A DNA stretch of 64,000 nt, taken from assembly GCF_033063295.1 (NCBI RefSeq), contig NZ_JAWJZH010000001.1:2728001-2792000 (forward strand), written 5' to 3'. Shown here one piece after another: positions 3,699 through 32,447 of this stretch (its first letter is position 1; the number at the start of each line of letters is the position of its first letter). The notes under the pieces are model-generated. The model was not told the DNA's origin. It did no database searches and was given only the letters and a program-made list of their open reading frames with translations. The translations under genes and the position numbers were made by a program. The DNA comes from Nitrosomonas sp. Is35. Lineage in GTDB: Bacteria > Pseudomonadota > Gammaproteobacteria > Burkholderiales > Nitrosomonadaceae.

Positions 3699-4754
3699 AT
3701 GGCAGAGAGAAAAAAGGAAAATATAAAAGGGCTTGTTGCGCCTATCGGCGCAACAGAAATTGATATTACGCTGATCAGCGAAGATATCCATCAACCCAGG
3801 AAAGAGTTTAATCAGGAAACGTTACGAGAATTAACGGAGACGATTAAATTACGCGGAGTCAAATCACCGATATCGGTTCGCCCCAATCCGGATAAACCGG
3901 GAACTTATATCATCAATCATGGGGCGAGACGCTATCGCGCCAGCATTAATGCCAGGTTAACCAAGATTCCTGCATTCATTGATACCGATTACAGCGAAGC
4001 GGATCAGGTAATCGAAAATCTGCAAAGAGATGATTTAACCTCCAGAGAGATTGCTGACTTTATTGGGCGGCAACTGGCAGGTGGTAAAACCAAGTCTGAA
4101 ATTGCCAGACTCATTGGCAAAACCAATCCTTATATCACCATGCACGCTGCATTACTCGATCTACCCGATCCACTCGGAGAATTATACCGGTCAGGTCGTT
4201 GCACCGATGTCACAGCACTCTATGATTTAACCAGACTCTATAAAGCCAATAAAGAGGAAGTAATCACCTGGCTGGCACTCAGTACACAAGAAGAAATATC
4301 ACGATTGGATGTCTATCAATTCAGTCAATTCTTAAAGCTGAAAAAAACGCCCCCATCTAATTCTGCGGATGATCAAGTATCCAGCGCTGAAGGCAAATCG
4401 AATACCCCTTCAACTCATAACAACGATCAAACACAAACCACGCCGAATTCATTGCTGGATTCTGTTTACAATCTGATAAAAAAAGACAAATGCAAGCCAC
4501 AGGATTTAATGCGTGATCTGTCTAACGATAATAAAGAGTTACTAAAAACCAAGATTGGCGATTATTTTGAGCAAGGCAGAAATTGCCCAAATGTCGTTCA
4601 GTTCACCATCAAAGCGCTTCAAGATGGTAGCTTCTCAGCCAAGGGGAGCGGCGCACTGCAGTTGATCGCCTTTTTGCATGGTATGGAAAGATCAGAGTCT
4701 TTTGATCTCATGAAAATACTGGAAGAAATTGCCGGACAACAGGAAGCAGGATAA
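3699..4754 (+). CDS. korB: KorB-like ParB/Spo0J-family protein
   Basis: A 351-residue ParB-family protein of the KorB type. The N-terminal ParB domain carries ISEDIHQPRKEF and the CTP-binding GARRYRAS (about residues 81-88). ENLQRDDLTSREIADF follows, then a helix-turn-helix (KSEIARLIGKTNPYITMHAAL, read in two overlapping parts) and the KorB-specific middle region. RK2 KorB (358 residues) both represses transfer and maintenance promoters and acts as the partition centromere-binding protein. Start: ATG at 3699. No IncC/ParA partner is in the window; TraL at 29925 is MinD-like but belongs to the tra group. The following kfrB-like gene supports an IncP-type control region. Confidence 0.85.
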   Translation: MAERKKENIKGLVAPIGATEIDITLISEDIHQPRKEFNQETLRELTETIKLRGVKSPISVRPNPDKPGTYIINHGARRYRASINARLTKIPAFIDTDYSEADQVIENLQRDDLTSREIADFIGRQLAGGKTKSEIARLIGKTNPYITMHAALLDLPDPLGELYRSGRCTDVTALYDLTRLYKANKEEVITWLALSTQEEISRLDVYQFSQFLKLKKTPPSNSADDQVSSAEGKSNTPSTHNNDQTQTTPNSLLDSVYNLIKKDKCKPQDLMRDLSNDNKELLKTKIGDYFEQGRNCPNVVQFTIKALQDGSFSAKGSGALQLIAFLHGMERSESFDLMKILEEIAGQQEAG

Positions 4755-4793
4755 TTTAATCTTGCCAGTAATCCTACTTACAACTAATTTGAA

Positions 4794-5165
4794 ATGACGA
4801 CACCCGCAAAGCTACGAATGATTGTAATGAATGGCCAAAAGATTCTACAAACTCAAAATAATAATGAATGGGAAACGATCGGCACTATCAAGAAGGTTGA
4901 TGAAGGCATCAAGCCAGGTGTCTACAATATTTATCTAGCTACAGCACCCGTTGATAAAAATCAGTATGAGGGACAAATCATTCATGTTGATAAAGAGAAT
5001 GCTGTTTTTTATCAGCAGGTCAAGAAGGATTTTATTGTGCATCAATTAAATGATGTTGATGGTAAACCTGTTGCGGGGAAAGATGTGGCTATTACTTATG
5101 ATGGGGAGAAAGCTACGTTAACTCTGGTAAATTCACCTAAGAATAAAAGAATATTAAAAATTTAA
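4794..5165 (+). CDS. KfrB-domain protein
   Basis: A 123-residue protein matching the KfrB domain of IncP plasmid maintenance regions: GVYNIYLATAPVDK, then EGQIIHVDKENAVFYQQV, a pattern of short beta strands shared by KfrB and the ends of some conjugative relaxases and primases. Its molecular job is not established. It lies 39 bp after korB on the same strand, as kfr genes lie near korB in RK2-like backbones. The gene is AT-rich like its neighbours. It is the last backbone gene before the cargo region starts. Confidence 0.75.
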   Translation: MTTPAKLRMIVMNGQKILQTQNNNEWETIGTIKKVDEGIKPGVYNIYLATAPVDKNQYEGQIIHVDKENAVFYQQVKKDFIVHQLNDVDGKPVAGKDVAITYDGEKATLTLVNSPKNKRILKI

Positions 5166-5238
5166 TGGGTAAATTCTGCCTGACAGCATTGAAGATTTGT
5201 CGGTTAGCAGCATTATGTTTTTTAAGCACGCGTAAGGG

Positions 5239-5508: not shown

Positions 5509-5513
5509 GGGGA
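5491..5513. repeat. GC-rich hairpin (CCCCGTGG/CCACGGGG)
   Basis: A 9-bp perfect stem TCCCCGTGG/CCACGGGGA with loop caaga stands out in AT-rich DNA. Hairpins of this shape occur as REP-like elements and as ends of IS200/IS605-type elements. No transposase is adjacent, so the origin is open. The DNA from 5514 to 5873 holds no gene I can support. Confidence 0.45.
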
Positions 5514-5873
5514 ATCACAAGTTTAAGAAGCTATTACCATGGTTATGTATCCAAAGATACGGCGGATTTACTGTAGGCCTCCAACCTTTCTATTTTGAGT
5601 ATTGATGCTTATTGGATCAAGACTGATTATTTGTTTTAATCTCAACAAGCTCAATCCCCCGCTCCTAAGGGAAAAAGCTGGTTAAAACCAGCCCATTGAT
5701 GAGTGCAGTTATTGCACTGCTTGCGCTGGATGTGCAGTATCTAATAACAACAGAAAAGGATTAATCACACCATATCCTGCCATTGGTTCAGATCGCGAAG
5801 TCGAAGCGAATTGGTTTGGATTGTAGGGAATGGAGATCAATTCGATACGCAAGGCATTGTGCCAGCCCAGTAA

Positions 5874-6137
5874 ATTCCACTACAAAGAAACTCATACTGG
5901 ATATACCAAAGCAAGCACCACGACATTATCGGCGGCAGTAAGGCTTTTAAAGATTTTATTTTGCTCAATGAAGCAAGAGATCCGGAATTTCCCATTTATC
6001 TAAGCTACACCCCGGAAGGGGTGGATCGGGTTGGCGGGGAAAGTTCTCGTCATAGTTACTCTGTTTTCTATGCCATATGCGACAAACAACTCATTGGTGC
6101 AATTTCAATTAAGCAATTAACAACTAACGAGGATTAA
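5874..6137 (+). pseudogene. Probable C-terminal remnant of type I-F Cas2-3
   Basis: An open stretch of 87 codons with no start ends 2 bp before cas7fv. It encodes [34 protein letters not shown] and [12 protein letters not shown]. In type I-F2 loci the fused Cas2-3 gene comes directly before cas7fv. The tail is judged to be Cas3-like from general resemblance to I-F Cas3 ends (alternating short motifs closing with a QxIGAI-type strand) and from position. It is preceded by a stop at 5871-5873 and by unrelated DNA, so only about 8 percent of a roughly 1,000-residue protein would be left. Another source protein cannot be excluded. Confidence 0.55.
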
Positions 6138-6139
6138 GC

Positions 6140-7129
6140 ATGCCAAATATTTCCGGCATTAAAAGCGTGGATTTTAAAATAGTTGCTAATGGCTATGGCG
6201 TAGTTAACTGGAATGGCCCGACTACATTGGTTGGTACTGATGGAATAAATCAAGGCAATCATGCGTTGCCAAAACTACGTGGTTACAGCAACTTAAATGG
6301 GATAGTAAAAGAAGAAACGGGGTTCAAATATAAAAAACATGCATCTGATATAGATTTTAAAGAAACTCCTATGTACATAAGTCAAAACTGTATCAGACAC
6401 CATTTATTTAGAGATCAGGCTTTTGATTTGCATTATGCAAAAGATAAAAACTTGTTGTCGGTTTTAACGTCAATTACAGGTCTGATTCGCGGGTACGTTG
6501 TTCCAGCTAGTCAATGTAAACGAACAAGCCCATTATTGCTTGAAGATTTTGTTGATCAGCTTGGTAATGGAAATTTTGAACAACTCTCATCTTCAAGTTC
6601 GACTGAAGAAATAATTAATGCGAATGGTACAACAGATTATAAGAAAGGAAAAAATTCGATTTTTTCGAAGACTACATTCGGGGAAACTGAGTATTTAGCT
6701 TACGGCTCAATCAGTATTGAACAATTGCAATTTATTTCGCTGGATAAAAAATTTGACCGGGCTTCCATGGTTATCAAGGACGGTGAAGGCGAAAAAATTG
6801 CTCAGACTGTTCAATATTTCATTAAATCCATCGATCCTAGCCGTAATCCCAAAGCAGTGTTTCACCCCAACTACGTGCGTGCCGGTACGATATTTGAGGA
6901 GGGCGAGGTCGGCATTTTATTGGATAACGAAGCGACGGATGTTCTCGTCAAAAAAACGTTACAAATGATTGAAGAACTCAGTATCCGTCAAGCCAAAGGC
7001 TATATGTGTGTCGATCACTTACTCGTCGATTACAACGACAGCATCAAAATGATGCGCATAAAGCGCAACTCAGCCGAAATAAACCAAGAACCCCAATCCC
7101 CTTATGCCATTTATTTTTATGCTAAATAA
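6140..7129 (+). CDS. cas7fv: Type I-F2 CRISPR backbone protein Cas7fv
   Basis: A 329-residue protein of the Cas7fv type, the repeated backbone subunit that coats the crRNA in the minimal I-F2 Cascade known from Shewanella putrefaciens CN-32. Recognisable stretches are [13 protein letters not shown] near the N-terminus, [20 protein letters not shown] in the middle and [19 protein letters not shown] in the last third. The ATG follows GAGGA at 7 nt. It is followed 9 bp later by cas5fv and then cas6f, the I-F2 order, which supports the call. No internal stop or frameshift is seen. In this locus it has no adaptation or nuclease partner left. Confidence 0.8.
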
Positions 7130-7138
7130 GGGAGAATC

Positions 7139-8167
7139 ATGCGGATTACTATTAACTATGAAGCTTCCTGGCGAAATTCGTTCTTGGATGGCTCCAATAA
7201 CGACCCCTTACCAAAAGGTGGCCGGGTATTTGTTGGCTCTATGACGACTTTGGGAAAACGGGATAGTCAAGGCAAATATCCGAATTTTATTAAACGTGAG
7301 ATTACTCATGACACCGTGATGGGTGTTTTGAATCGGCTTATCGGCGATCAAAGAAAGCTCTATTAATCCAGAAATTGCCCTAAATACTTCTTTTCAGGTT
7401 TGGAAGAACGCATATCTTTTAACGACCAGCAGGATTCAAGTGCGTCTATCAATACTGAAACGGTTTATATCCGGAATATGGAAGGAAATACCGATCAAAA
7501 TTCATTCACTGGAATGATTAAAGCAAATGATCCGGTTTTTACATCCGATTATTCAAACATTTTTTGGGGAGTCTTGACGCTTGATATCGAAAATCTTTGC
7601 CGCTTCATTGTCGATGAAAGCTTTCAAGTGAGTTCTTCCAAGCAGTTTGATCCTTTGGATGTTTTACAAAAACTGCATGAATTAAATAAATTAAAGGCTA
7701 TTGATATTGAAACAGTGAAAAATGCTTTGGATGCATTACAGAAACATTTTTCCGACGCTGCTTATAAAGCCGTCGACAGCAAAATAAAGCCAATTGAATT
7801 GTACTGTTCAGCGTTGTATTTGCAGATTAGCCGTTTAAGTCACGAATATGACGTATCTCTAGCACTTACAAAGAATGGTGGTCTAGCCGGTATTTCAAAA
7901 CGTGGTTATACACCAAAAGATTTTATGGATCGATACACCACGGGCAGTAAAAAACCAATATGGGGAAATCCGTACCAACTGAAGGAAAAACGCAAAGGCG
8001 AAGGTGAGGTTGTCTCTTTATTAACTAAAGCCAACGGTACGCTTGATATTCTTCTCAACATTCCCGGCGACAAAGCTGAACAACTAAAAAGAATGATCGA
8101 TGACGCTGGCGTTTCCAGTTTTTACCTGGGTAAAAAAGGCTTGGCTTACGTTGACGTAATTCGCTAA
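7139..8167 (+). pseudogene. cas5fv: Type I-F2 Cas5fv, interrupted by one in-frame TAA
   Basis: Cas5fv caps the 5' end of the crRNA in the I-F2 complex and, through its extra helical domain, replaces the large subunit in PAM recognition. The frame runs from ATG 7139 (GGGAG before it) to 8167 and would give 342 codons, broken only by TAA at 7364-7366. Before it lies [16 protein letters not shown]...[14 protein letters not shown]; after it the same frame continues with SRNCPKYFFSGLEERISF to the end. A CAA-to-TAA change (Gln to ochre) would explain it. A TTG at 7400 could restart translation but has no good ribosome site. As it stands the N-terminal 75 residues are separated from the rest. Confidence 0.8.
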
Positions 8168-8179
8168 TTGGAAGATGCC

Positions 8180-8824
8180 ATGAACTATTATCTTGAAATC
8201 ACCTTATTATCGAATTATGAAATCAATCTTTTCAGCCTCTGGTCCCAAGCCTTCCAGCAAATCCACTTGGGATTAGTCGAAACACAGGATACGGAAAAAC
8301 GGGCACCGATCGGCCTATCGTTCCCCGAATACAAGATGGGTGAGAGATTCGGCATGCTGGGCAACAGGCTTCGTTTGTTTGCTCCGGACGAAACCTCCCT
8401 GATCCGGTTCGACGCGAAAAAACGATTAAGCCATCTGAGCGATCACGTGAATTGCACCGGTATCCTCCTGGTGCCAAGTATCGTCGAAGGTTATGCCGTT
8501 TATCAGCGCGAGCAACCCAAAACTGGCCGGGAACGCCTAGCCCGGCGCTATGCGAAGCGGCACAACCTGGATTACCAAACTGCATTCAATGGCAAGGTTG
8601 AGTTGTGCGCAAAGCACGATAATGCAACCGAATATAAAAAAGTGTTGATGAGTTACAGCGAAATGCCGCACAAAACCATCACCACCCCGTTTATCCGGCT
8701 GAAAAGTCTAAGTAGCGGCAATACGTTCTGCCTGTGGATCAAAAAAAGAGAAATAGAAAACAGTGTTAAAGGAATTTTTACCACCTATGGTTTAAGTTCT
8801 ACTGCTTCCGTACCCGAATTTTGA
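8180..8824 (+). CDS. cas6f: Cas6f (Csy4) CRISPR RNA-processing endonuclease
   Basis: A 214-residue Cas6f/Csy4, the enzyme that cuts pre-crRNA at the 3' side of the repeat hairpin and stays bound to it. His29 (QQIHLGL) falls exactly where the catalytic His of Pseudomonas Csy4 lies. The arginine-rich helix that grips the hairpin is RERLARRYAKRH (about residues 117-128), and the C-terminal TYGLS holds the conserved tyrosine. ATG at 8180 is chosen over the upstream TTG at 8168 because of GGAAGA before it. It is the third gene of the I-F2 set, 12 bp after cas5fv, and the array follows 132 bp later. It looks intact and could still process the array. Confidence 0.92.
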   Translation: MNYYLEITLLSNYEINLFSLWSQAFQQIHLGLVETQDTEKRAPIGLSFPEYKMGERFGMLGNRLRLFAPDETSLIRFDAKKRLSHLSDHVNCTGILLVPSIVEGYAVYQREQPKTGRERLARRYAKRHNLDYQTAFNGKVELCAKHDNATEYKKVLMSYSEMPHKTITTPFIRLKSLSSGNTFCLWIKKREIENSVKGIFTTYGLSSTASVPEF

Positions 8825-8956
8825 CTTATTTTTTGGACGATCTTTAACAATCCAAACAAATAGGCTAATTGCGATGCAGGTATTTACAGGATGGTTATCC
8901 ATTCCTAAATATCCTGCACACTGCACCACAACTGGCTTTGAGTTTTTTTATCGTCT

Positions 8957-9146
8957 GTTCGCTGCCGCGCAGGCAGCTTAGAAATTTATTTTGGCTTGCG
9001 TTATTATGGCTTCGATGTTCGCTGCCGCACAGGCAGCTTAGAAATTATTTCATTAATGCTTACCAGGCTGTTTTTTAGTTTTCTGCCGAGAAGGCAGCTT
9101 AGAAAAAGATTGAGCGAGGAAGTTACACTGAATCGATGTTTGCTGC
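8957..9146 (+). CRISPR. Short type I-F CRISPR array: three repeats and a truncated fourth
   Basis: Repeats of 28 bp lie at 8957-8984, 9017-9044 and 9078-9105. They begin GTTCGCTGCC (GTTTTCTGCC in the third) and end GGCAGCTTAGAAA, the type I-F pattern with a CTGCC/GGCAG hairpin. Spacers are 32 bp (8985-9016), 33 bp (9045-9077) and 32 bp (9106-9137). At 9138, exactly one unit further, GTTTGCTGC begins a fourth repeat that turns into unrelated DNA after about 9 bp. The third repeat differs mainly at its 5' half, as last repeats often do. The 8825-8956 segment, between cas6f and the first repeat, is the likely leader. No spacer matches were seen inside the window. Confidence 0.93.
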
Positions 9147-9351
9147 AGGAGGTGATTTAACTTTTTTTGAAATTGTAAGAAATCTGTCTAACGAGCGATG
9201 TTCGAATGTTCCTGGACTTATGATTCCGAGCATGACCACTCATCGGTTCGTGGTAAGTTCGATGCAAGCATACGATACAATGGATTCGGATTCCGTATAG
9301 TTTGCCTTTTCCCAGACTAAATCTTTTCTTTCACGACTAGCAGGATTACTT

Positions 9352-20120: not shown

Positions 20121-20601
20121 CTGTTACTAAACAACCCTTTTTAGTTTACGCAGTAACAATGTAGTTAGTGAGAAAAATGCAGCATTAAGTGTATCGTTGC
20201 ATGATGTTTTTGGTAGATAGCAAAGTTAAGCTTTTTTTTCATTTTTTTAGGCTCTAGACTAGCGGACATGATCTGTTAATCTAGGGCCATCTTTGTAAGA
20301 TGGCCCTGAAATAGTGAGATATTTTTTGCCTTCTTCTCTCATTCTCATTTTCAGAAGGGTAGAGATATCCAAAAATAATTAAGCTCTACGAAAACCCATG
20401 CTCTAGCTTTGCAAAGCAATTTTTCCAATCATTTTTATGTGCTACGGTTGCGCCTTGTCAGTATTTGCAAGAAAAAACCTTGGAGCCATCTAGTAATTCC
20501 TCGGCGCTTTCTTGCATCAAGAATATCACTGCTGAGTTTCTTCAGGACTTGTTCAACAAGAAATGATCTTACAGACATAATAAATACCAAATTGAAAACT
20601 G
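20121..20601. other. Gap before the RadC-like gene
   Basis: About 480 bp. It holds one strong hairpin (20283-20307) and otherwise no supported gene. The right cargo/backbone border lies somewhere here. Confidence 0.5.
20283..20307. terminator. Hairpin AGGGCCATCTT/AAGATGGCCCT
   Basis: An 11-bp perfect stem with loop tgt, 160 bp past the secreted-protein gene. No T run follows directly on the plus strand, so it may be a weak or processing-type terminator. Confidence 0.45.
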
Positions 20602-21717
20602 TCAGCGTTTATGACTTTTGCATTTGCCCGATCCGTCCTCTTCCTTCACAAATGTTCTAGGCTTCCTAAAAATGGCACTTATTTCACCGGGCATTGACGC
20701 AAACACTCCTTCTTCTCGCAATGACCGATAATCAGCCCCCTCTACAGTTAACACATCTTTTAGTATGCCAACTTCACAAGCTTTGGATAATACCGGGTGC
20801 CTGTAATCATTGGCATTCGTGATAGCAAATACCGTATTGACACCTGAATTGCGGGCAAAATTTTGCAGTCGCGCCAGCAGCAAATTTTGAGAGCGATCCA
20901 GTACCGATAAGGGTAACTCACTTAACGATAATACATATCCTGTTGCACTGATGCCTATCAAGTTAAAAAACTGATCCCGTCTCTTTAAAGTATGGCCTAT
21001 CTTTGCAAGATCCTCCGGTGAAGTTATTTTCTCCAAGAGCAGCTCATGACTTTTATAGTGGTTATTCTGATAACCACCCGCCAAGTCCCGCATCCAATTC
21101 ATAAAATCGACATGACCATCTTTATCAATGACACTGTATTGACTGGTATTGATAATGACATGGCCTTTGAAACCCGGAACAGTTGATGCAATTATTTCTG
21201 TAAGCCTGATATCCTGATTCGATGGCGTAGCATTACCCGATGGATGGTTATGCAATAACCAGTACCCATCTGCTTTAACATGTCGTCTAGTCTTTTCTAC
21301 CAAAACACCCAGATCATGTTTGTCATGCCCAATTTTTTCCAGATAGACTGCGCCCGGTAATCTGGAACTCACAGCCGTATGATGAACGATGCGATTCATA
21401 CGGGTATAGAAGATTCGCAGCGTTTCATAACGCGGATCACGCAGTATTTGCGCCATTATTGCCAGATCATGGCCTGACTTAATAGGCTGATTTAGGAAAG
21501 TGGTTTCTCCTTTTTCTCGGAAGTCTTTTGGGAAATCGCAACCCAGTAAGGTGCCACCTGCCCATCGAGCATGAGCTTCGAGCAATTCTGTATAGGCACC
21601 TCGCCCTGCTTCCCTTTGTTTTTCGGTAGTACCGGGACGAGTCTCAATGTTTTCATAAAGATCACCTTCATCAGAATGGAATGAATTTCCTGGAGTCTTT
21701 AACCTATTATCGCGCAT
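20602..21717 (-). CDS. RadC-like JAB-domain protein, long form
   Basis: A 371-residue protein whose centre is a RadC/JAB metal-binding domain: the LHNHPSGNATPSNQDIRLTE stretch at about residues 155-174 contains the HxHPSG-x-D metal motif. RadC-type JAB proteins are frequent on plasmids and ICEs, and despite the name their role in repair is not established. This form is longer than usual (about 160-220 residues). It has an extra N-terminal region with no known domain and a C-terminal domain (DQFFNLIGISATGYVLSLS to AIFRKP) that looks RadC-unrelated. It is the last gene of the leftward tra block, 20 bp after traC. Confidence 0.72.
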   Translation of the reverse strand: MRDNRLKTPGNSFHSDEGDLYENIETRPGTTEKQREAGRGAYTELLEAHARWAGGTLLGCDFPKDFREKGETTFLNQPIKSGHDLAIMAQILRDPRYETLRIFYTRMNRIVHHTAVSSRLPGAVYLEKIGHDKHDLGVLVEKTRRHVKADGYWLLHNHPSGNATPSNQDIRLTEIIASTVPGFKGHVIINTSQYSVIDKDGHVDFMNWMRDLAGGYQNNHYKSHELLLEKITSPEDLAKIGHTLKRRDQFFNLIGISATGYVLSLSELPLSVLDRSQNLLLARLQNFARNSGVNTVFAITNANDYRHPVLSKACEVGILKDVLTVEGADYRSLREEGVFASMPGEISAIFRKPRTFVKEEDGSGKCKSHKR

Positions 21718-21737
21718 CTTGTAGTCTCCTTAAAAGA

Positions 21738-24575
21738 TTACCTGGCCAATGCCCGTTTTTGCTTGATTTCCTGCTGCTTAGGTTCAATAGGGACTTGTAA
21801 CTTCAATAAGCTGTCCTGTTTAGCCTGCTGAGAAACTTTCTCAAAAACCGATCCGACCTGACGTTTTACCGCCTCAATACCCAGCGCGCTTTTATTGGCC
21901 AGATCATTAAAATCATTTAATTTCTTTGAGTCCTGCTCACCCGGTGCAAAAACCGGAAATACCGCAGCCCCATTGACCAATACCGCTGCTTCAAGCGCTT
22001 TTTCCTTGCCGGGGTTTTTGCTAAGGGTCGATTCCAGATGATGATCATCGTCGCCTGCGATAATGATTGGCTTATGTGGATACTTTTCATGCAAATCCTT
22101 AGATACTTTGGGTAGGTTACCTGAATCAAATGCGGCGATGACAGGATAATCCAGCGCCTGGGATAGCGTGTCTGCGGTGGCATAGCCTTCAGCAATAACA
22201 ATGGCAGGTGCAGCATCCAGTGCTGTAAGTCCCTGACTCTCGCCACCAACGACATGAAAGTTATTCTCCTTTCTGCTACCCGCTGCAAAAAGCTTTGCAC
22301 CACTGGGTTGTATCGTTTGTACACCCCAGATTTGTCCATGAACATCTTGTGCGGCCAGCAACAAATCACCGGCACTCAGTACAATGCTATTTGGATTTTC
22401 TTCTCGCAATACTTTGACTTCCTGCCAGTTCTGACCAATTTTGATGATTGAGTCATTGGGTAAATCATCAGCATTCTGCGGCACAATTCTCAGATCGCCT
22501 GGCCGGGCGTGCTTGTCTTTCAGATAAGGATGTTCGGAATCGGCAGCAGGTGCGATAGTCAGCAATTGTTGAATTGCATCAGCAACTTTAATTTGCTGCG
22601 CATGTTGTTCGGCTTTTCTGTTCTGCTGCTTGATAGCAGCTTGGGCGAATAGCTCGGCTTTTTGCTCATCCGTAAGAGAGTACCCCCTGGCCTTCCAGCG
22701 AATTTCAATACCGGTTCGATTATTCTTGAAATATCCGGCAGGATGACCATCCAGATGCGCCACATAAAACCCTGATTTCTCGACCGACTTGTCGCCTTCG
22801 ACTTTAATTCTGTGTTTACTGCCATCCATCACTGGATGATTGCCATCAACCAAACAACCTTGAGCGCGCAGCAAGTCAGCAAATTCCACGTGAGGATCAG
22901 TAGCTAGTTCCTGTTGGCTGGAAACATTCTCCGGTAACCAACGTTGTAATGTTTGAATATCTGCTTCTGGCCCTACATACCAGGAACGGGCCTTTTTGTC
23001 CCAACGAGCGCCAGCAGCCTTTGCTAAGTCCTTATCACGATAAGGAACGATCAAATATTGACGAGCATTGTCATCGTTTTGCTCGGCCTTGGTTCCTAAT
23101 ATCGATACTTCAGTGCTAATTGGATCATTTCGGATGCGGTTTTCATGGATGTTAGCAAGCTTAACGGCCTTTTCATGTTCATTTTGTTCTGCGGCGGCGT
23201 CGATGAGTGCAAGCAGATCAGTCAAATCCTGCGCTTCTTGTTTGGATTCACAGTCTTTCACCCATTGGAAAGTCTGATCATCACGCTGCATAGTCACACC
23301 CCAAAATTGTGGCTCCATGTTTATTAAATCAGCGGATACTATAGACTCAATACCATTTTCATTGGTTTGAATCGTATTACCCTGAATCTGTAACTGTCCA
23401 TTCCAGTCAGCCGGAATTCTAAAACCCAATTTGTCTTCCGCAACTTCTTCAAACTCCAAGTTATCAATACCGCCGCCCCTCGTAAATTTGAGTGCATCAG
23501 CAACCAGAATGATGGCATCCTGATCCTTTTTTGACATATCCTGTGTCAGATCATTAAATCGTTTGATATTGTGGGATGAGATGGTGGCCAGATCATGTGA
23601 GAGATTCAGTAAATAAGCTGCGGTGTTTTGCTTGATTTGATCCATCTTGATTGCCTCCTGTGCATAAACTTTCTGTGCAATTTCATGTTGTTGTGACAAT
23701 GCCAGTACAAAATCCTGGATTTTTTCTGCATCAGCGGCGGCACGGAATATCTCTGTCGGATCCTCCTGCAGCGCTTTGATCCATGAACTCACATAAGCCA
23801 CATGCTGCCCTGGATCATGACCAATCCCCAGCTCACCACTGAGCAGCATGCTGGCTATCTCAGCGCGTAATTCTTCGCGGCCGTAACCTTCGCTTCCAAA
23901 TGGATGCGATAGATCACGATTTAAGCGCAATTCATGGCCTGTCCAGTGCCCCAGCTCATGCAATGCAGTTGCGTAGTAGCGATCGGGGGTCGGAAACTGG
24001 TGCTTATGGGGTAAGTGGATACTGTCTGTGGATGGTCGGTAAAATGCGCGGTCTGCCTCACCATGACGAATCACGGCATTGGATGCCTGTAATATGTGTT
24101 CAGCCCGCTCCAGTGGATCCCAGTCGGGGGCTTTAATGTCAAGTTCTGGCAGATTATCCATTTGTTCCGCATTAAATACGGAGGCATAAAACACTCGGGG
24201 GCGCTCTAGTCTGACTTGTTCTTTAATTAGATTGCCTTCACTATTTAAAACAGGATTTCCGTTATCATCTTTTTTGATGTGCTCCTCAGTAAATTTCCAG
24301 TATTGCACGAGCGTGCTTTTTTCACCTTTACGCACCTGCGCACCCAGGCTTATCGCTTGCTTGTAGGTTAGCCAACGCGGATCCGTATATGCACGACTCA
24401 TCAGGTTTAGGCTATTGATGCCCCGGTAGCGCTTACCCGTAGTTGGGTTGATAGGTAATGCGGCTAGCAGATCACCTGGTTTCCACGGTTTTTGCCAGGG
24501 TGCAGCGCCTTTTTTGAGTTGCTCAATCAAATTCTCGGCGACTTGTTCATGAAAAGCCTTTTTAGCCTCTTTCAT
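21738..24575 (-). CDS. traC: TraC-like conjugative primase with ArdC-type N-terminus
   Basis: A 945-residue multidomain protein. Residues 1-130 are the ArdC/DUF1738 ssDNA-binding domain ([25 protein letters not shown]). Residues 180-300 hold a zincin-like peptidase with [10 protein letters not shown]. About residues 515-560 are a DUF5710-type domain ([19 protein letters not shown]). The C-terminal third is a toprim-type primase with [16 protein letters not shown] and [13 protein letters not shown]4 TraC is a primase that travels with the transferred strand; ArdC domains also protect incoming DNA from restriction. It overlaps the small gene upstream by 14 bp. No break is seen. Confidence 0.88.
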
Positions 24576-24780
24576 CGTTAACCTCCGCTACATGATCAAT
24601 TGTGCTATCCAGCGCATCCTGTTCACTCAAGGCATCTTCCGTGAATGCGCCCAGCCTTTCAGCCTCTAAAGGATCAAATTCAGCCTGAAAGCCCGGTATT
24701 TCTGCATCGAGTAGCTTGTCCGTTATGACTTCTTGTATGTCAGGATTGTTTGTTTCAGCATCAATCAGTGGTCTATGCAT
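24562..24780 (-). CDS. Small acidic protein between traF and traC
   Basis: A 72-residue acidic protein ([20 protein letters not shown]...) that I do not recognise. ATG at 24780 is chosen for AGGAG about 9 nt before it; a longer frame from 24855 overlaps traF. It overlaps the traC start by 14 bp. It occupies the place of the small traD/traE genes of RK2, but no sequence tie to them is visible. It may be a partner of the primase. Confidence 0.6.
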
Positions 24781-24805
24781 GGCTTTGACTCCTATTAATT
24801 TTTGA

Positions 24806-25345
24806 TTAATGACTCCAGGTAAAAATCGGACGAAAAACTTGCTTAATCTGATCACGCGTAATCAGTCCGAAATAGCGCGCGTCAAAGGATTGCGGGTTCA
24901 AATCGGATAGCAGCAGGTACTCAGAATCATTGAGCACAGCTTTAAGCCTGTATTGCGGCAATGGTTGACCCTCAGCATCTGCTATTAGTTGAGTGCTGTT
25001 GGGTAAGTGTTTGCCATTCACAAAGATGCCAGCCTGATCGATGGAAACCGTATCTCCGGATTGTGCAAACACACGTTTGAGCAACAAACCATAGCCACCA
25101 GGGCAATCCCCTCGGTTGATGTAGGATCGATCCATAGCCATATCAAAAACCACATCCTGTGGTGGGCAAAAAGCGACATAAGCGCCGCTGACAATCGGTT
25201 CATCAACCATTTTGTAAAAACCTACTGGCAAACTGGGTGTGGTATTGATATAAATCCCGCTGATTCGTGCACCAATACTTAGTACAAATACGCTAACGCT
25301 TAGGGTCAGAATCAAAACACCCAGGATTTTGATGGGTTTTTTCAT
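24806..25345 (-). CDS. traF: TraF-like S26C peptidase, pilin cyclase
   Basis: A 179-residue membrane-bound serine peptidase of family S26C. It has an N-terminal membrane segment (residues 8-30), the catalytic Ser in [10 protein letters not shown] (about residue 38), the general-base Lys in [14 protein letters not shown] (about residue 90) and the closing [16 protein letters not shown] with the conserved Asp. In RP4, TraF cuts the TrbC pilin and joins its ends into a ring. TrbC is encoded at 1345 in this element, so the enzyme and its substrate are both present. It lies 29 bp after traG in the leftward tra block. Confidence 0.93.
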
Positions 25346-25374
25346 GAAATTGACTCAGTAGAGTTCGAGGTATC

Positions 25375-27210
25375 TCAAAGTCCGGTTAATTTGTCGCTGA
25401 AGCTCGGGGGATTCACTTGTGCCCGTGCCGTAAAGGTTTCATCCTGGAAATACAATGGCTGCGTGCCATAGATGGCAGGGAAACCAGCCACATAAATAAT
25501 CATGTCGCCAGGCTTTGTGATCTTGCCTTCAGCATCTTTCATCGGGCCTGGCAGTCGCATACACTCATCCGGCGTTAATAACGCGCGCTGCGTCTCCTGT
25601 AGGGTACGGGTGACATGTCCATGCATCATTGATGAGCGGCGGCCGCTGGTGGTAATCTGTTCTTTGATGACCGTGGTTTGCCCGGTCAGTTTGGATAAAT
25701 GCTCCGCTGTTTCAATCCGGTTGGGTGCAAATGCGGTCTGGATGTGACAGTTGGAAGTAATCGCTTCATCATGCCCGTAGCCGGTCTCGCGACTTTTGAG
25801 TTGATTTAAGTCTTGGCAAATCAGATAGGCTTTCATGCCATAGCCTGCGATAAACGCGAGAGATTCCTGAAAGATCTCAAGTTTTCCTAAGCTTGGGAAT
25901 TCATCCAGCATTAATAGCAGTTTGTGTTTGTAATGCGCGCTGGGTTGACCGTCTTTGAACGTGATTCTATCGGCTAACTTTCTGATGATCATATTGATCA
26001 GAATGCGGATTAAAGGGCGCAACCGCGATTTATCATTGGGGTGTGACACAATGTATAAGCTGACGGGATGCTCATGGTGCATGAGGTCACGGATTGTAAA
26101 ATCCGATGTGCTGATATTGTTGGCCACGATCGGATCTCGATACAGGGACAAATACGATTTGGCTGTCGACAACACGGAGCCGGCTTCTTCTTCAGGGCGA
26201 TCCAGCATATCGCGCGCACTGGCTGCAATCACTGGATGACTCTTGCCATCCAGATAATCTTGCATGGCCATTTCCATCCACAATTCCCTGATGTCGCGAT
26301 CAGGATCGGATAGCATTGCATCGACAGTCGATAATGTGGCAGGGGTTCCTTCTCGCTGCGATTTGTACAAAACATGCAAAATGACACCTACCAGCAATGC
26401 CTGGCTGGTTTTCTGCCAGTGGGTTTGTAATCCCTTGCCATCCGGATCAACAATTAAGGTAGTCAGGTTTTGAACATCGGCGACTTCGGTGCCGCTGCCA
26501 ATTTGGATTTCATCCAGCGGATTCCAGTGCGCGCTGCTGGTTGATGCCGGGTCAAAGCGCAGCACCTTGTTTTCGGCGTGAAGCTTTCTCCAACCGGCGG
26601 TCAATGCCCATAACTCACCTTTAAGATCAGTAATGACCGCGCTCTGAGTCCAGGAAAGCAAAGTGGGTATGACCAGACTCACACCTTTGCCTGAGCGGGT
26701 TGGGGCATAGCACAATACATGTTCCGGGCCGCGGTGTTTCAGATAGTGGGTTTTGCCGGAATTATCCCGCCAGCCGCCGACATAAACCGCATCGCTTTTG
26801 TGATTCTTGCCTGTTGCCAGTAGTCCTGCGGCTACAATGTCCTGCTTATCCGCCCATCTGGCTGAGCCATGCAATCCCTGATTGGTCCGGGATGAATTGG
26901 CCAATACCATTTTAATGACCAGCACCAGAATCAAACCGATGCTGGAAAATAAAATACCAAAACCTGCCGCCAGATCGAAGATGCCCGAATACTCGCCATA
27001 CCATTTATTCGCCCACACCAGAATTGCCCAGGGTTCATAAATATGAAAAAGGTGTGTACCTAATTGCGGTTGATAATTGAATTGTTGCGCAAAATACTGA
27101 GTGGCGACTTGGAATCCGCCAACAAGGCAGACAATGGATAATGAGCGGACGATAATCTTGTCTTTTTTGATATTTCTGCTGTCTTTAGAACTCAGATTGA
27201 TGTTATTCAT
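25375..27210 (-). CDS. traG: TraG/VirD4-family coupling protein
   Basis: A 611-residue inner-membrane ATPase that hands the relaxase-DNA complex to the secretion channel. Two N-terminal membrane segments (about residues 23-42 and 72-102) are followed by the RWADKQDIVAAGLL stretch, Walker A APTRSGKGVSLVIP (about 169-182) and Walker B LLLMLDEFPSLGKL (about 427-440). The ATG overlaps the traI stop by one base (TGATG), so they are coupled. Length is near RP4 TraG (635). Intact. Confidence 0.94.
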   Translation of the reverse strand: MNNINLSSKDSRNIKKDKIIVRSLSIVCLVGGFQVATQYFAQQFNYQPQLGTHLFHIYEPWAILVWANKWYGEYSGIFDLAAGFGILFSSIGLILVLVIKMVLANSSRTNQGLHGSARWADKQDIVAAGLLATGKNHKSDAVYVGGWRDNSGKTHYLKHRGPEHVLCYAPTRSGKGVSLVIPTLLSWTQSAVITDLKGELWALTAGWRKLHAENKVLRFDPASTSSAHWNPLDEIQIGSGTEVADVQNLTTLIVDPDGKGLQTHWQKTSQALLVGVILHVLYKSQREGTPATLSTVDAMLSDPDRDIRELWMEMAMQDYLDGKSHPVIAASARDMLDRPEEEAGSVLSTAKSYLSLYRDPIVANNISTSDFTIRDLMHHEHPVSLYIVSHPNDKSRLRPLIRILINMIIRKLADRITFKDGQPSAHYKHKLLLMLDEFPSLGKLEIFQESLAFIAGYGMKAYLICQDLNQLKSRETGYGHDEAITSNCHIQTAFAPNRIETAEHLSKLTGQTTVIKEQITTSGRRSSMMHGHVTRTLQETQRALLTPDECMRLPGPMKDAEGKITKPGDMIIYVAGFPAIYGTQPLYFQDETFTARAQVNPPSFSDKLTGL

Positions 27211-28847
27211 CAGAAGCTCCTTCGGGTGGTGATGGAGGTGGTGGGTCGTTTTTGACCTGCCGATTGCACTTTATTGACCCTGTGCTGTTTCATTAACTGC
27301 TGACGGTATTGTTCAAGCGGCTTATCGTCAAAAGTGATGCGCATTTGATTTTGTGCGGTCACTTCAGCGATCTCAAGACGAAACGATTCAGTTCCATTGA
27401 TCGCCAGGTGGCTGCCGTACTTCTTCATGGCCACTTGTAAAATATCCACTAATGCATCTTGTGTTGTATCCGGCAGCACGACTAATCGCTTGCCGTCATC
27501 ACGGATGGTGGTTGATCCTGCTTTATAAGTGACTGTGCCGATCTTGGTGATCGATTCAACAGAGCTGTCTTTAATAAAGCCATCTTTGAAGTAGCCATTA
27601 GGTTTATCATGGCTTTGCTTGGCCGATACCTGATTGCCCTTAAATTGACCGGATCTTCTGGATCGCAACACGGCCAATGCTTCAGCATTGCCATTTCTGG
27701 CCTCAAATGTGAGCCAATCCAGCCACCCCATTCTGGAATGATGGGCCTTAGAGTGCTGATAGGATTTTTGATAATCACTTTTAATGACTTCGATAGTCGT
27801 TTTGAATTGCTGATGTGCGGTTGCATACAGCGCTTTTTTGGCCAATCTCCCAGCTTTGATGCTTTTAATGATGTTTCGCTTGAGTTTGGCTTCCCGTTTG
27901 GCGCGGTCAATGAGTTGATCTCTGCTTTGGCGCAACATAACCCACTGGCTTGAATTCTGTCTGGCGCTATTTGCTTGCTCTTGCTGGTATCGCGCATAAA
28001 GCTTTGAAGTATCGATTCGATTCTGCAGTGGTTTTGGCTGGTATTGTTTGGCGTTTTGTTGTGACGATTGTCCAAAATTATCACTAGGTACAAATGCACC
28101 CAGTCTTTGAGTTAAATTCCCTTTGGATAAAGAGCGATCAACTGAACTGGCCTTAACAGCCACGCCATTATTGGCAACCAACACAAACCCGTTGCCACGC
28201 TCCTTGATTTCAAGGCCATGCCTAACTAGAACCTGATGCAAGTCATGCCAGTTGTCCGCGCCTTTGATTTCAGTAAGTGCCTCACGCTTGATCCAACCCA
28301 GCAAGCTCTCTACACCTGTTCTGGTTTCGATTTCTTGCGCTACTCTGGAGGCTTTATCATTCACGGTTTCATGATTAACTATTGTTAAACCATATTCCTG
28401 TTCGATTTGTTCACAAAGCTTCGCTACTTTCTTGTAATCATAATAAAGATTGTGGATTGTTAAGTTTCTAGAATGTATCTTATTGATTGCGATATGCATG
28501 TGAAGGCTATTGGTATCATCATGCACGACACTGATCCGTTGATGATCTGTAAAACCCAAGACATCACAAAATTGTTCTTCAATGGCATTAAGACTCTCAA
28601 GGGATAAACGCTCTCCTTCCGGGAAGCTCAACACCAAATGGCAGGTTTTGTCTGATTTGGCGCGCTTATTCATTTCCTGTGTGTTTTGTATCTCTATCAA
28701 TGCAGCTATCTGATCATCTGAATAACAGTTTGATACCTTGATCTGGCTGACACGTTCACTCTTGTCCTGAGGATCGGTCAGATACTGTATCAGTGCAGAG
28801 TAGTTGCTTTTGCGCACTGATTTGATGGGTATGATTTTAGCGATCAT
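27210..28847 (-). CDS. traI: TraI-like MOBP relaxase
   Basis: A 545-residue relaxase of the IncP TraI/VirD2 type (MOBP). Motif I with the nicking Tyr is VRKSNYSALIQYLTD (about residues 11-25), and motif III with the metal-binding histidines is HDDTNSLHMHIAINKIH (about 108-124). The long C-terminal half is basic and helical. The enzyme cuts one strand at oriT and stays covalently bound to it. It is shorter than RP4 TraI (732), mostly in the C-terminal part. A candidate KorB operator lies 6 bp before its start. Its oriT is about 0.5 kb upstream at 29342, past traJ. Confidence 0.92.
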   Translation of the reverse strand: MIAKIIPIKSVRKSNYSALIQYLTDPQDKSERVSQIKVSNCYSDDQIAALIEIQNTQEMNKRAKSDKTCHLVLSFPEGERLSLESLNAIEEQFCDVLGFTDHQRISVVHDDTNSLHMHIAINKIHSRNLTIHNLYYDYKKVAKLCEQIEQEYGLTIVNHETVNDKASRVAQEIETRTGVESLLGWIKREALTEIKGADNWHDLHQVLVRHGLEIKERGNGFVLVANNGVAVKASSVDRSLSKGNLTQRLGAFVPSDNFGQSSQQNAKQYQPKPLQNRIDTSKLYARYQQEQANSARQNSSQWVMLRQSRDQLIDRAKREAKLKRNIIKSIKAGRLAKKALYATAHQQFKTTIEVIKSDYQKSYQHSKAHHSRMGWLDWLTFEARNGNAEALAVLRSRRSGQFKGNQVSAKQSHDKPNGYFKDGFIKDSSVESITKIGTVTYKAGSTTIRDDGKRLVVLPDTTQDALVDILQVAMKKYGSHLAINGTESFRLEIAEVTAQNQMRITFDDKPLEQYRQQLMKQHRVNKVQSAGQKRPTTSITTRRSF

Positions 28848-28852
28848 CGTAT

Positions 28853-28865
28853 TTAAGCTGCTTAA
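28853..28865. promoter_or_regulatory. Candidate KorB operator TTAAGCTGCTTAA (copy 2)
   Basis: A 13-bp perfect palindrome with central T, identical to the site at 3200-3212 apart from the centre. It lies between the traJ stop and the traI start, only 6 bp from the traI ATG, so a bound protein could stop traI expression or elongation. Assignment to KorB is inferred from resemblance to the RK2 operator shape. Confidence 0.5.
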
Positions 28866-28888
28866 GTCAAAAAGGACTATTCCGAAAG

Positions 28889-29257
28889 TTATTTTTTAAG
28901 CTTCATAATGACATCCAGCATCGCGCTTTGCGTATTCCGGATACTGTCCAAGGTTAAGTGCAACTGCGACTTGCCAATTAATTTTGTGCGCCTGTCGTTG
29001 GTGAGCCAAAACTTGATTAATCCACCCAGCCTGCCAAGATCCGCATTGATTCTTAACAAAGCATCCACTTTCCGGTTATCTATAACACTGGGCACTTGAT
29101 AACCTAGGCCCAGATTGCGCAGGTACTCGGCAACGGTTAATCCGGCATCCGTAGCTTTGCTCTTTATTTCAGCGTCTTCGATTGGCAAAACAGGAACCCT
29201 GAGCTTTTTGTCTCTTCTCTCTTTTTTAATTGTCTTGAGGTTCTTTTTGTCAATCAT
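28889..29257 (-). CDS. traJ: TraJ/MobC-like oriT accessory protein
   Basis: A 122-residue basic protein. It has a ribbon-helix-helix-like start (KKLRVPVLPIEDAEIKSKA) followed by GLTVAEYLRNLGLGY and the MobC-type region DLGRLGGLIKFWLTND. In RP4 TraJ binds the inverted repeat beside the nick and guides TraI to it. The gene starts about 60 bp from a perfect 20-bp palindrome next to nic, and is followed by traI, the RP4 order. The symbol rests on position and family; MobC is an equal name for this fold. Confidence 0.85.
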   Translation of the reverse strand: MIDKKNLKTIKKERRDKKLRVPVLPIEDAEIKSKATDAGLTVAEYLRNLGLGYQVPSVIDNRKVDALLRINADLGRLGGLIKFWLTNDRRTKLIGKSQLHLTLDSIRNTQSAMLDVIMKLKK

Positions 29258-29272
29258 TTCAGTTTTCCTCGA

Positions 29273-29360
29273 AGAGCAAGATCAACGTTGAGCACAGAGT
29301 GCGAATAAGTTGGGGTGGAGATGGCCATCTCCACATATCTTGCCCGGCTGTGTGAGATTC
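29273..29360 (+). other. oriT: Origin of transfer (oriT), IncP-type, nick about 29342/29343
   Basis: Between divergent traJ and traK lies ATCTTGCCCGGCTG (29337-29350), near-identical to the RP4 nick region ATCCTGCCCGGCTG, so the cut is expected after TTG (between 29342 and 29343, plus strand). Beside it is a perfect 20-bp palindrome GTGGAGATGGCCATCTCCAC (29315-29334), the place of the TraJ-binding repeat in RP4. Further left, GCACAGAGTGCGAATAAG (29292-29309) also resembles the RP4 oriT. Comparison is from memory of RP4. The AT-rich DNA from 29360 to 29600 should hold traK-side binding sites and promoters. Confidence 0.88.
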
Positions 29361-29601
29361 AAGAAATATACTAACACTATAATCGATGTTTGCAAATAGT
29401 TTATTTTCGTTATATCATAATTACAAACAGTATTAAAATACTTGAAAAAAGCTTTATTCAACTAAATAACAGTCACTTGGAAGCAAAAAAAAGGATAAGC
29501 AATTAATTGATACTGAAAGCAACAAAAATAAACAGAAAGGAAAGCAAAAAAACAAAAAGCTGTTTGGACGCCAAGATAACTATTTTTTTGGAAATTGTGT
29601 G

Positions 29602-29925
29602 ATGAATAAATCCTTATCAGATCGAATCGCACTTTATGCGGATAAAAACAAAAGTACCGGTAAGCAATTTTTACCAGCGTTCATCGCATTGAAACCTGAT
29701 ATTGAGCAAGCACTCAAGGATGGCTGGACGATTCGACAGATCTGGAACATTTTGCACCAGGAAGAAAAAATCAAATGTTCTTATCAATGGTTCAGGACTT
29801 TGGTCAATCGACATATTGGTGAGGACAGAAAGCAACATCTACGCATTGATCAAGGAAATTCAGCCGGGAATGGTCATGAAGGATTTCGTTTTAATTCTGC
29901 AACTGAAAAAGAGGAGTTGATCTGA
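29602..29925 (+). CDS. traK: TraK-like oriT-binding protein
   Basis: A 107-residue basic protein with the TraK pattern: FLPAFIALKPDIEQALKDGW (about residues 23-42), TIRQIWNILHQEEKIKCSYQ and FRTLVNRHI. In RP4 TraK wraps the oriT DNA and helps expose the nick. It starts divergently from traJ with oriT between them. ATG at 29602 is preferred to GTG at 29599. The stop overlaps the traL start (TGATG). The tail after about residue 75 is polar and probably loose. Confidence 0.82.
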   Translation: MNKSLSDRIALYADKNKSTGKQFLPAFIALKPDIEQALKDGWTIRQIWNILHQEEKIKCSYQWFRTLVNRHIGEDRKQHLRIDQGNSAGNGHEGFRFNSATEKEELI

Positions 29926-30656
29926 TGGCTAAAATACATATGATTCTGCAAGGGAAGGGCGGAGTAGGCAAGTCGTTCATATCATCCACGCTAGCACAAC
30001 ATAAGTTTGCTAAAGGCGGCAATCCAATATGCATTGATACAGATCCGGTTAATGCCACTTTTTATGGATTTAAAAAACTCAATGTTAAGCAGATTAATGT
30101 GATGAACAATGATGAGATTGATCCGAGAAAGTTTGATGATTTAATTGAACTTATCGCCAATGCTGAAAATGACGTCATTATTGACAATGGTGCCAGCACC
30201 TTTGTGCCGATGTCGCATTATCTCATCAGCAATCAGATACCCGCCTTGCTTTTAGATATGGGGCATGAGTTGGTTGTGCATACCGTCATCACCGGCAGCC
30301 AGGCTCTATTGGATACATTGAATGGTTTTGTACATCTGATTAAACAGTTTCCGAAAGAAGCACTGTTTGTTGTCTGGTTAAATCCTTACTGGGGAGAAAT
30401 CACCATGAATGGCAAGCAGTTTGAGGAAATGAAAGCGTATATGGATAACAAAGGGCGAGTATCCGCCATCATCCGAATTCCACATTACAAGCCTGAGACT
30501 TTCGGCAAAGATTTGAGCGAAATCCTGCAATCAAAATTTACCTTCGATGAAGCGCTGAAGAATAGTGCTTTGCCGATGATGGTACGTCAACGATTAACGA
30601 TTATCCGCAGGCAGCTCTTCACCAACATTGAAAATGTGGCTGCGGTTTTAACATGA
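29925..30656 (+). CDS. traL: TraL-like MinD/ParA-family ATPase
   Basis: A 243-residue P-loop ATPase of the MinD/ParA class. The deviant Walker A is QGKGGVGKSFISS (about residues 9-21), followed by ICIDTDPVNATF and IIDNGAS. TraL belongs to the traKLM set of IncP plasmids; its exact task in transfer is not known. It overlaps traK by 1 bp and traM by 4 bp. It should not be taken as the KorB partition partner, although the fold is related; no IncC is in the window. Confidence 0.85.
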   Translation: MAKIHMILQGKGGVGKSFISSTLAQHKFAKGGNPICIDTDPVNATFYGFKKLNVKQINVMNNDEIDPRKFDDLIELIANAENDVIIDNGASTFVPMSHYLISNQIPALLLDMGHELVVHTVITGSQALLDTLNGFVHLIKQFPKEALFVVWLNPYWGEITMNGKQFEEMKAYMDNKGRVSAIIRIPHYKPETFGKDLSEILQSKFTFDEALKNSALPMMVRQRLTIIRRQLFTNIENVAAVLT

Positions 30657-31081
30657 ATGCCGACAAATTAGATGCGATCATTGAAAGAATAGCGTCAGAA
30701 CACGGCATTGTTCTGTCACAGGATGATCCGGTGTTGATGATGCACACCTTGAATGAAGTATTGCTGGAACAAAATGAAAAAGCTCATGCTGAACTGCTAA
30801 GCAATTACCAGGCGATATTAGAAGAAAACTTTAATCGATGGTGTGAGTATTCTACCAAAAAATCCAATGCCATTATCAGTGCATCCATGGGTAATGCACG
30901 ATTAACACGAGACCAATTTCTGGAAAGCTGTATTCAGCTGATTAATGAAAAAATAAAAAGTAGAGAGGGTCAGGAGATTTATGAGCTGACCAGAATTTCC
31001 AGGCAGGCGGCCATTATTAATTTACTGGCATCAACCTTACTCTTAATTTCGGTTTTAATCATATTTTTGATTTTGCTATAG
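30653..31081 (+). CDS. traM: TraM-like conjugal transfer protein
   Basis: A 142-residue protein with a helical cytoplasmic part and a single C-terminal membrane segment (AIINLLASTLLLISVLIIFL, about residues 121-140). RP4 TraM is of the same size and closes the traKLM operon. Here the gene overlaps traL by ATGA. Its exact role in transfer is unclear; a tail-anchored inner-membrane protein facing the relaxosome is the likely picture. Confidence 0.82.
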   Translation: MNADKLDAIIERIASEHGIVLSQDDPVLMMHTLNEVLLEQNEKAHAELLSNYQAILEENFNRWCEYSTKKSNAIISASMGNARLTRDQFLESCIQLINEKIKSREGQEIYELTRISRQAAIINLLASTLLLISVLIIFLILL

Positions 31082-31114
31082 CCAATCTTTTTTAACAATG
31101 CAATGAGATGGCGC

Positions 31115-31444
31115 ATGAGAACATTAAATTTAAATGAAGCTGCCCAATTCTTGAAGTTGCACCCTGAAGAAGTGCGCCGTCGCGCTAAAGCAGGAATTAT
31201 TCCGGGGGCAAAATTAGGGAAACGGTGGGCATTTATTGAAGATGATCTTGCTGATCACATTCGCTCGTTATATGCTTGCACTCGGCAAGCGTTGCAAGTG
31301 GGACATGAGGAGAAACAATTATGTCACTCTGTAAACGTGGTAAGACGTGGTGGATTAGTTTCACCACACCAAGCGGCGAGCGAGTTAGATGCTCTGCTGC
31401 AACTGAAGATAAAACCCAGGCGCAAGAATTCCACGATAAGCTGA
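31115..31444 (+). CDS. Excisionase-like helix-turn-helix protein
   Basis: A 109-residue protein whose first 60 residues are a MerR/excisionase-type winged helix: LNLNEAAQFLKLHPEEVRRR, then AGIIPGAKLGKRWAFIEDDL and HIRSLY. Such genes lie directly before tyrosine integrases and bend DNA at the attachment site to favour excision. ATG at 31115 is preferred to 31103. The last 40 residues overlap the integrase start by 124 bp and look like unselected reading frame, so the functional protein may end near 31330. It is on the plus strand after traM. Confidence 0.72.
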   Translation: MRTLNLNEAAQFLKLHPEEVRRRAKAGIIPGAKLGKRWAFIEDDLADHIRSLYACTRQALQVGHEEKQLCHSVNVVRRGGLVSPHQAASELDALLQLKIKPRRKNSTIS

Positions 31445-32371: not shown

Positions 32372-32447
32372 TGGTGCCGACACCAAGAATCGAACTCGGG
32401 ACCTTCTGATTACAAATCAGCTGCTCTACCATCTGAGCTATGCCGGC
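32372..32447 (-). tRNA. tRNA-Thr (anticodon TGT), insertion site of the element
   Basis: The minus strand folds as a full 76-nt cloverleaf. The acceptor GCCGGCA pairs with TGTCGGC, followed by A and an encoded CCA. The D-arm has AGCTCAGATGGTAGAGC, the anticodon loop TTTGTAA gives TGT (Thr), and the T-arm has GGTTCGATT-type sequence (GAGTTCGATTC). The 3' end faces the integrase gene, so the element entered the 3' half and restored it. The matching direct repeat at the other end should lie left of the window. It follows sspB by about 30 bp. Confidence 0.96.

Follow-up and report, generated by a model that had tools for sequence, protein, structure and literature searches.

A type I-F2 CRISPR-Cas relic in the cargo of an IncP-like integrative and conjugative element of Nitrosomonas

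Does a CRISPR-Cas locus that has lost its nuclease still serve its carrier, or is it decaying? The question is raised by a locus on the + strand of a 64,000-nt stretch of the genome of Nitrosomonas sp. Is35 (hereafter, the window; positions 2728001-2792000 of G000:C1 in a 3.31-Mb genome). Here, three effector genes, scraps of cas2-3 and a short array lie beside kfrB, among genes for conjugation. A preliminary description of this DNA had regarded them as a type I-F2 CRISPR-Cas relic on a conjugative element. Based on the analysis reported here, we consider it very likely that the locus is a decayed I-F2 (I-Fv) system, which would have arrived with an IncP-like integrative and conjugative element (ICE) at a Nitrosomonas tRNA-Thr gene, as defence cargo in the kfrB-traC slot of the element.

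Gene content and lesions of the locus

The effector genes have the I-F2 order cas7fv, cas5fv, cas6f, as had been described, and the profile matches (PADLOC, Pfam and NCBIfam) agree with those to the Shewanella putrefaciens structure 5o6u. cas7fv (6140..7129) is an open frame of 329 aa, the product of which (protein 6140-7126) matches the PADLOC profile with E 2.6e-172, scores 458.6 bits on NCBIfam NF040577 against a cut-off of 200 and aligns to the solved Cas7fv of 5o6u with E 4.9e-147. cas5fv (7139..8167) is a pseudogene, a single frame interrupted by a TAA. The PADLOC Cas5fv model matches both sides of the stop (residues 1-75, E 2.1e-34; remainder, E 1.8e-103), Pfam Cas5fv_helical (PF20158) is found with E 5.8e-69 and 5o6u is matched with E 3.4e-85; neither piece was matched in the NCBIfam profile scan. 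cas6f (csy4; 8180..8824) is open over 214 aa, with matches in PADLOC, NCBIfam and Pfam (PF09618, E 9.4e-48). From the cas2-3 tail to cas6f there is no space for a Cas8 gene, i.e. for a large subunit. Thus, the locus has Cas7fv, a Cas5fv with the helical domain and no large subunit, Cas6f, and repeats and spacers of I-F2 size, which confirms, at the level of sequence, that it is a genuine type I-F2 relic. What it does not have is cas1 and a fused cas2-3 upstream of the effector genes, and for this reason we classify it as a decayed I-F2 descendant rather than a working member.

In a Cas1f family search of this and seven other genomes, no I-F Cas1 was found here; the sole match, a Cas1e, comes from a distinct type I-E locus elsewhere in the genome, in agreement with the earlier view that cas1 is gone. 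That I-E locus lies at ~203.8-217.6 kb of G000:C1 (L044 5845-19629) and has 70 repeats, 69 spacers and matches to Cas1e, Cas3e, Cas8e, Cas11e, Cas7e, Cas5e and Cas6e (~203.8-213 kb). cas2-3, sought in the same eight genomes with the cas3_yersinia family (TIGR02562), is reduced to residues 56-89 and 903-978 of 978. In addition to the small tail already described (5908..6137, 71% aa identity by tblastn), DNA alignment uncovers a scrap of the Cas2 part (5770..5919), which carries a 5-bp insertion, is shifted in frame and is 84% identical to the intact cas2-3 of genome G024 (L038); the TIGR02562 match at 5745-5876 contains two TAA codons. The cas2-side and cas3-side alignments overlap in the 11-bp stretch AAGCAAGCACC (5909..5919), which both sides match, one of them at the cost of a mismatch in L038; compared with the G024 gene, ~2,393 bp are missing between the two scraps. 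The natural reading is that cas2-3 was lost by a deletion that probably occurred between these 11-bp short direct repeats. Finally, of the three effector genes, cas7fv and cas6f are open, while cas5fv has an in-frame TAA at 7364-7366, to which the preliminary description made no reference. This stop is codon 76, at which seven of seven relatives are open, and cuts Cas5fv at residue 75 of ~342; the next in-frame start is a TTG at 7400. Because one genome cannot order lesions, the suggested informative decay order, in which adaptation and nuclease genes go first, is not supported; moreover, the effector gene cas5fv is broken too, and genome G041 has a frameshifted cas7fv together with an open cas1.

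The array (8957..9105), also seen before, consists of three 28-nt repeats (8957-8984, 9017-9044 and 9078-9105) that separate spacers of 32 and 33 nt. With one mismatch allowed, the I-F repeat core has three copies in the 3.3-Mb genome, and since all three fall in the window, the array is not a product of chance. The third repeat is degenerate, as is the last repeat in some relatives. The stretch from cas6f to the first repeat (8825..8956) is leader-like, as judged by an alignment of window 8684-9047 to the relative L036 (13531-13893) at 71%. A possible third spacer of 32 nt and the vestigial 5' end of a fourth repeat may follow at 9106..9146: at 9138, at the expected 60-nt spacing, eight of the ten 5' bases are present, and this fourth repeat is a weak one because the window has 33 matches of such quality on its + strand.

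Cas7fv was found in eight of the 101 related genomes searched (this one included), all of the genus Nitrosomonas. In six of the seven others, cas1, cas2-3 (~980 codons), cas7fv, cas5fv and cas6f are whole, with 24-47 recognisable repeats in the fetched stretches, that of G039 running to the contig end. The seventh, G041, has its locus on two contigs split within cas2-3 (residues 412-481 uncovered), an early frameshift in cas7fv, an open cas1 and four repeats, and is possibly a second decaying copy (L041 15456-19629, minus strand; L042). Beyond the genus, 11 loci are present in Nitrotoga, Methylobacter, Crenothrix, Methylomagnum, Methylophilaceae, Methylococcales and Legionellaceae, and Cas7fv is encoded on three Acinetobacter plasmids and one Legionella plasmid. 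Together with I-F2 as the only type in 197 of 689 CRISPR-positive A. baumannii, as reported by one survey (PMC9428484), this does not bear out the statement that I-F2 is rare and known mainly from Shewanella. Among 20 other distinct loci (seven from Nitrosomonas, 11 from the other genomes and two from the four plasmids, with two further Acinetobacter plasmids set aside), 19 have a full-length or almost full-length cas2-3, and in G041 the gene lies in two pieces on separate contigs. Because none of the 20 is without cas2-3, the relic represents decay and not a recurring nuclease-free module, and among the loci examined the loss of the nuclease is peculiar to the window copy.

Several of these loci have features of their own. 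In Crenothrix, PIN-domain genes separate cas2-3 from cas1 on one side and from cas7fv on the other (L091 1296-1700 and 5764-6237); Methylomagnum has a BrnT/BrnA pair between cas1 and cas2-3 (L092 4401-4974); cas7fv of Methylophilaceae (L097 8001-8978) has one in-frame stop; and the centre of the G002 cas5fv (L043 5572-6615) differs from the window much more than the two ends do, i.e. the gene is a mosaic within I-F2.

The element and its kfrB-traC interval

The position of the relic in ICE cargo adjoining kfrB holds up. To its left are korB and kfrB (3699..5165, + strand; Pfam ParB_N/KorB and KfrB), which form the left edge of the cargo slot. To its right is a backbone (20492..31100) of an ArdC-like protein, an S26 peptidase, a TraG coupling protein and a TraI relaxase, with the tra names (traC-like for the ArdC-like gene, TraF-like for the peptidase) presumed by us from position, followed by an integrase (31321..32337, + strand; Pfam Phage_integrase, PF00589, E 2.5e-31) and tRNA-Thr (32372-32447). 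The 45-bp right attachment repeat at the tRNA-Thr 3' end (32372..32416, + strand) is identical to G000:C1:2671958-2672002, and these perfect repeats bound 88,459 bp, end to end; a 24-nt attachment core (<=3 mismatches) occurs in the genome at just these two sites. Between them lie the trb genes, korB, kfrB, the relic, the ArdC-like protein, the TraG- and TraI-like proteins and the integrase. Matches to conjugation genes comprise the TraI relaxase, the type IV secretion system (T4SS) coupling protein, a T2SSE-type ATPase (TrbB-like), TrbE/VirB4, TrbI, TrbL, VirB8 and CagX, and the trbE frame is open over 855 codons. By its predicted genes, the 88.5-kb stretch has the integrase, attachment repeats, relaxase, coupling and mating-pair functions by which an IncP-like ICE is recognised, and may be one element or a composite.

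In all 17 loci fetched from relatives (13 genomes), korB-kfrB is conserved up to the kfrB end, give or take a few bases. An intact version of the relic at the same site, a search for which had been proposed, was not encountered: none of the 17 loci matches the relic at E 1e-10, nor is I-F2 present in the five in which the traC side was reached; small cargo matches elsewhere in these loci are a 44-bp piece and transposase-like pieces. Eleven of the 13 genomes gave no Cas7fv match (G003, G027 and G049 among the 11 being drafts <90% complete); in the two ICE-bearing genomes that gave one, G024 and G039, it lies on other contigs. The interval holds different genes in different relatives: matches to SspB, C, D, F, G and H in G060; to a methyltransferase, CARF and PRTase in G024; and to IetA, IetS and a GajB-like helicase in G051 (contig 17). 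By eye, three open reading frames in G029 start like those for SspB, C and D of G060, and those of G049 start like those of G024. Of four other G029 proteins, one weakly matched a restriction enzyme and three had no match, and eight other window proteins had no match in PADLOC. Thus, by gene content, the kfrB-traC interval (5166-20492 in the window) looks like a swap slot for anti-phage systems in this Nitrosomonas ICE family.

Around the relic we noted, by eye, an insertion sequence fragment (5239-5514) and a two-frame transposase (10549-11506), as well as a short-chain dehydrogenase fragment (9301-10091); a short repeat of ~40-48 bp at 5488-5570 has many copies across the genus. Elsewhere inside the attachment repeats (L045 3504-20000, L110 12381-20000), an open frame of >5,000 codons encodes adhesin-like repeat units and adjoins genes that, by eye, resemble those of a type I secretion system.

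Origin, selection and competing explanations

The relationships of the relic conflict with those of its host. Of ten genomes compared by core genes, G041 is the nearest (secA 94%, petABC 96%), while G024 is distant (secA 74%, petABC 77%). At the DNA level, however, cas5fv is 90.0% identical to G024 and 65.7% to G041, cas6f 86.4% and 75.9%, and cas7fv 79.9% and 73.5%, respectively; the cas2-3 tail is less clear-cut (91% and 87%). In the Cas6f protein tree, the window copy groups with G024 (96/90); in the Cas7fv tree, it falls inside a six-row set (97/98) that includes an Acinetobacter plasmid copy, with many other forks open. The conflict between cas and core-gene identities implies that the I-F2 locus moved between hosts, and the differences from gene to gene point to recombination among I-F2 loci. 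Judged by these identities, the relic is horizontally acquired and closest to that of a species distant by core genes.

Selection was assessed in single-gene tests under a codon model that gives the window branch its own omega, run with and without G041 (L041; values without it in brackets). For cas7fv, omega is 0.177 versus 0.048 (0.139 versus 0.038), for cas5fv 0.142 versus 0.131 and for cas6f 0.346 versus 0.169 (0.390 versus 0.149). The likelihood ratios for a different omega are 9.7 (12.6), 0.06 and 4.9 (8.1), and those against omega = 1 are 4.8 (9.9), 28.7 and 9.9 (6.9), respectively. Purifying selection has therefore acted along most of the branch and is somewhat relaxed in cas7fv and cas6f, a pattern that fits recent decay without proving it. 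In the intact relative L043, cas7fv shows no significant rise (0.105 versus 0.047, likelihood ratio 0.4).

Several observations weigh against decay or its reconstruction as given here. No frameshift interrupts cas7fv, cas6f or what remains of the cas5fv frame, the hairpin arms of the first two repeats are intact and all three genes have a window-branch omega of less than 1, with no relaxation in cas5fv. In other words, with frames preserved and omega below 1, the locus either decayed recently or has kept some function. A raised omega in cas6f is no mark of decay as such, since the intact L043 has a similar rise (omega 0.479, likelihood ratio 5.2), and, with I-F2 loci recombining, branch tests on single genes are approximate. 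Finally, an empty attachment site was sought in G041 and not found, as the two element sides do not meet there: G041 matches the right flank and attachment site at 94.7%, the element's left flank is unmatched in that 20-kb stretch, and the G041 sequence past the attachment site has no long match in G000.

Open cas7fv and cas6f frames and omega below 1 in all three genes are what a remnant kept for a nuclease-free job would show, in which Cas6f would make CRISPR RNAs (crRNAs) and Cas7fv with a split or re-initiated Cas5fv would bind target DNA and repress rival elements or genes. We consider this very improbable, and give an even smaller chance to the more specific proposal that the ICE retains Cas7fv, Cas6f, the array and a two-piece Cas5fv to bind DNA of competing elements under crRNA guidance, without a nuclease. 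Cas5fv ends at residue 75, with re-initiation left to the TTG at 7400; omega is raised in cas7fv and cas6f, and values below 1 would arise anyway on a branch that is mostly older than the lesions; and all 20 other distinct loci have cas2-3. Nor were targets found. The three window spacers gave none in the fetched related loci (leaving aside matches <26 bases, those of a locus to its own array and those in listed array-bearing loci); a phage search with 8985-9137 had a best E of 0.5; a plasmid search with it gave 62 records, of which the 15 listed run over the repeats; and exact 24-26-nt spacer cores had zero matches in viral contigs, among which no carrier of a Cas7fv relative was found either. 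The suggested role in inter-element competition thus gains nothing from these spacers. Likewise, neither the 69 type I-E spacers of this genome nor 201 I-F2 spacers (three from the window and 198 from relatives, one an irregular 56-nt piece) match the window or the fetched ICE stretches. This comparison dropped matches to L044, those of <22 (I-E) or <21 (I-F2) bases and perfect I-F2 matches of >=30 as self, and what was left over was the I-E array under another locus id, spacers of one relative's array inter se and one repeat-containing piece. The spacer comparisons cover the fetched stretches apart from the element's first 16 kb and the examined I-F2 plasmids.

That the locus is chromosomal and lies near ICE genes by chance would agree with the other Nitrosomonas I-F2 loci, which sit away from this backbone (window 1-5166 is unmatched in eight fetched stretches from seven genomes), but is contradicted by its place between korB-kfrB and the traC-traI-integrase side, within the 45-bp attachment repeats; we hold it to be highly unlikely. 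I-F3 systems are not known to have Cas1 or Cas3, and both are missing here; Cas7 also scores on the general Cas7f model in PADLOC and Cas6 weakly on the type IV Cas6 model. A transposon-borne I-F3 module (CRISPR-associated transposon, CAST) or a type IV module is nevertheless the least probable explanation of all, with next to no weight in our judgement: the 6140 and 7139 proteins match I-F2 models best, as the proposed profile check was meant to establish, the Cas5fv helical domain is present and the cas2-3 scraps indicate that a nuclease was once there. TniQ had no match in the genome, but the same search gave none in any control genome either.

For the decayed I-F2 locus that we favour, the ancestor would have been intact, with cas1, cas2-3, cas7fv, cas5fv, cas6f and an array. 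As in S. putrefaciens, Cas6f would have cut the array transcript, Cas7fv and Cas5fv would have built a Cascade without a large subunit and Cas2-3 would have degraded the target. Adaptation would have been lost with the I-F cas1, and target degradation with the putative 11-bp direct-repeat deletion that took the nuclease-helicase. The predicted effects of the lesions argue against crRNA-guided interference by the relic.

The relic among known I-F2 systems

The relic resembles the I-F2 system of S. putrefaciens CN-32 in its order of Cas7fv, helical-domain Cas5fv and Cas6f, in having no large-subunit gene and in its I-F repeat with ~32-nt spacers, but has no cas1, only scraps of cas2-3, an interrupted cas5fv and two or three spacers. 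The I-Fv Cascade is described as Cas5fv, Cas6f and Cas7fv without a large subunit (PMC7266957). With the nearest intact Nitrosomonas loci (G024, G002 and G050), the relic shares the repeat core and 72-90% DNA identity across cas7fv, cas5fv and cas6f; by contrast, cas1 and the whole of cas2-3 are present in these, 32-47 repeats can be recognised in the fetched stretches, and the loci lie off the ICE backbone. On plasmids of Acinetobacter lwoffii (mobilizable) and Legionella longbeachae (conjugative), I-F2 is likewise on a mobile element, but with all five genes annotated and cas2-3 alignable over residues 1-973. In Vibrio cholerae, genomic islands are reported to carry I-Fv as cargo, and in one strain cas3 has a transposase insertion (PMC6360697); the element type is thus another one, and cas3 is interrupted there and deleted here. 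Degenerate CRISPR loci are also mentioned in the A. baumannii survey cited above (PMC9428484). Among titles and abstract openings of the papers listed, which covered few subscription papers, we found no paper on I-F2 or on ICE defence cargo in Nitrosomonas.

The locus thus adds a well-resolved example of a CRISPR system decaying on a conjugative element. By itself it teaches little past known I-F2 biology, being a genuine but fairly ordinary relic of a known system. The surrounding interval reaches further: the kfrB-traC slot of this Nitrosomonas ICE family is suggested to serve for swapping anti-phage systems and may, therefore, be a place to seek new defence cargo of nitrifiers.

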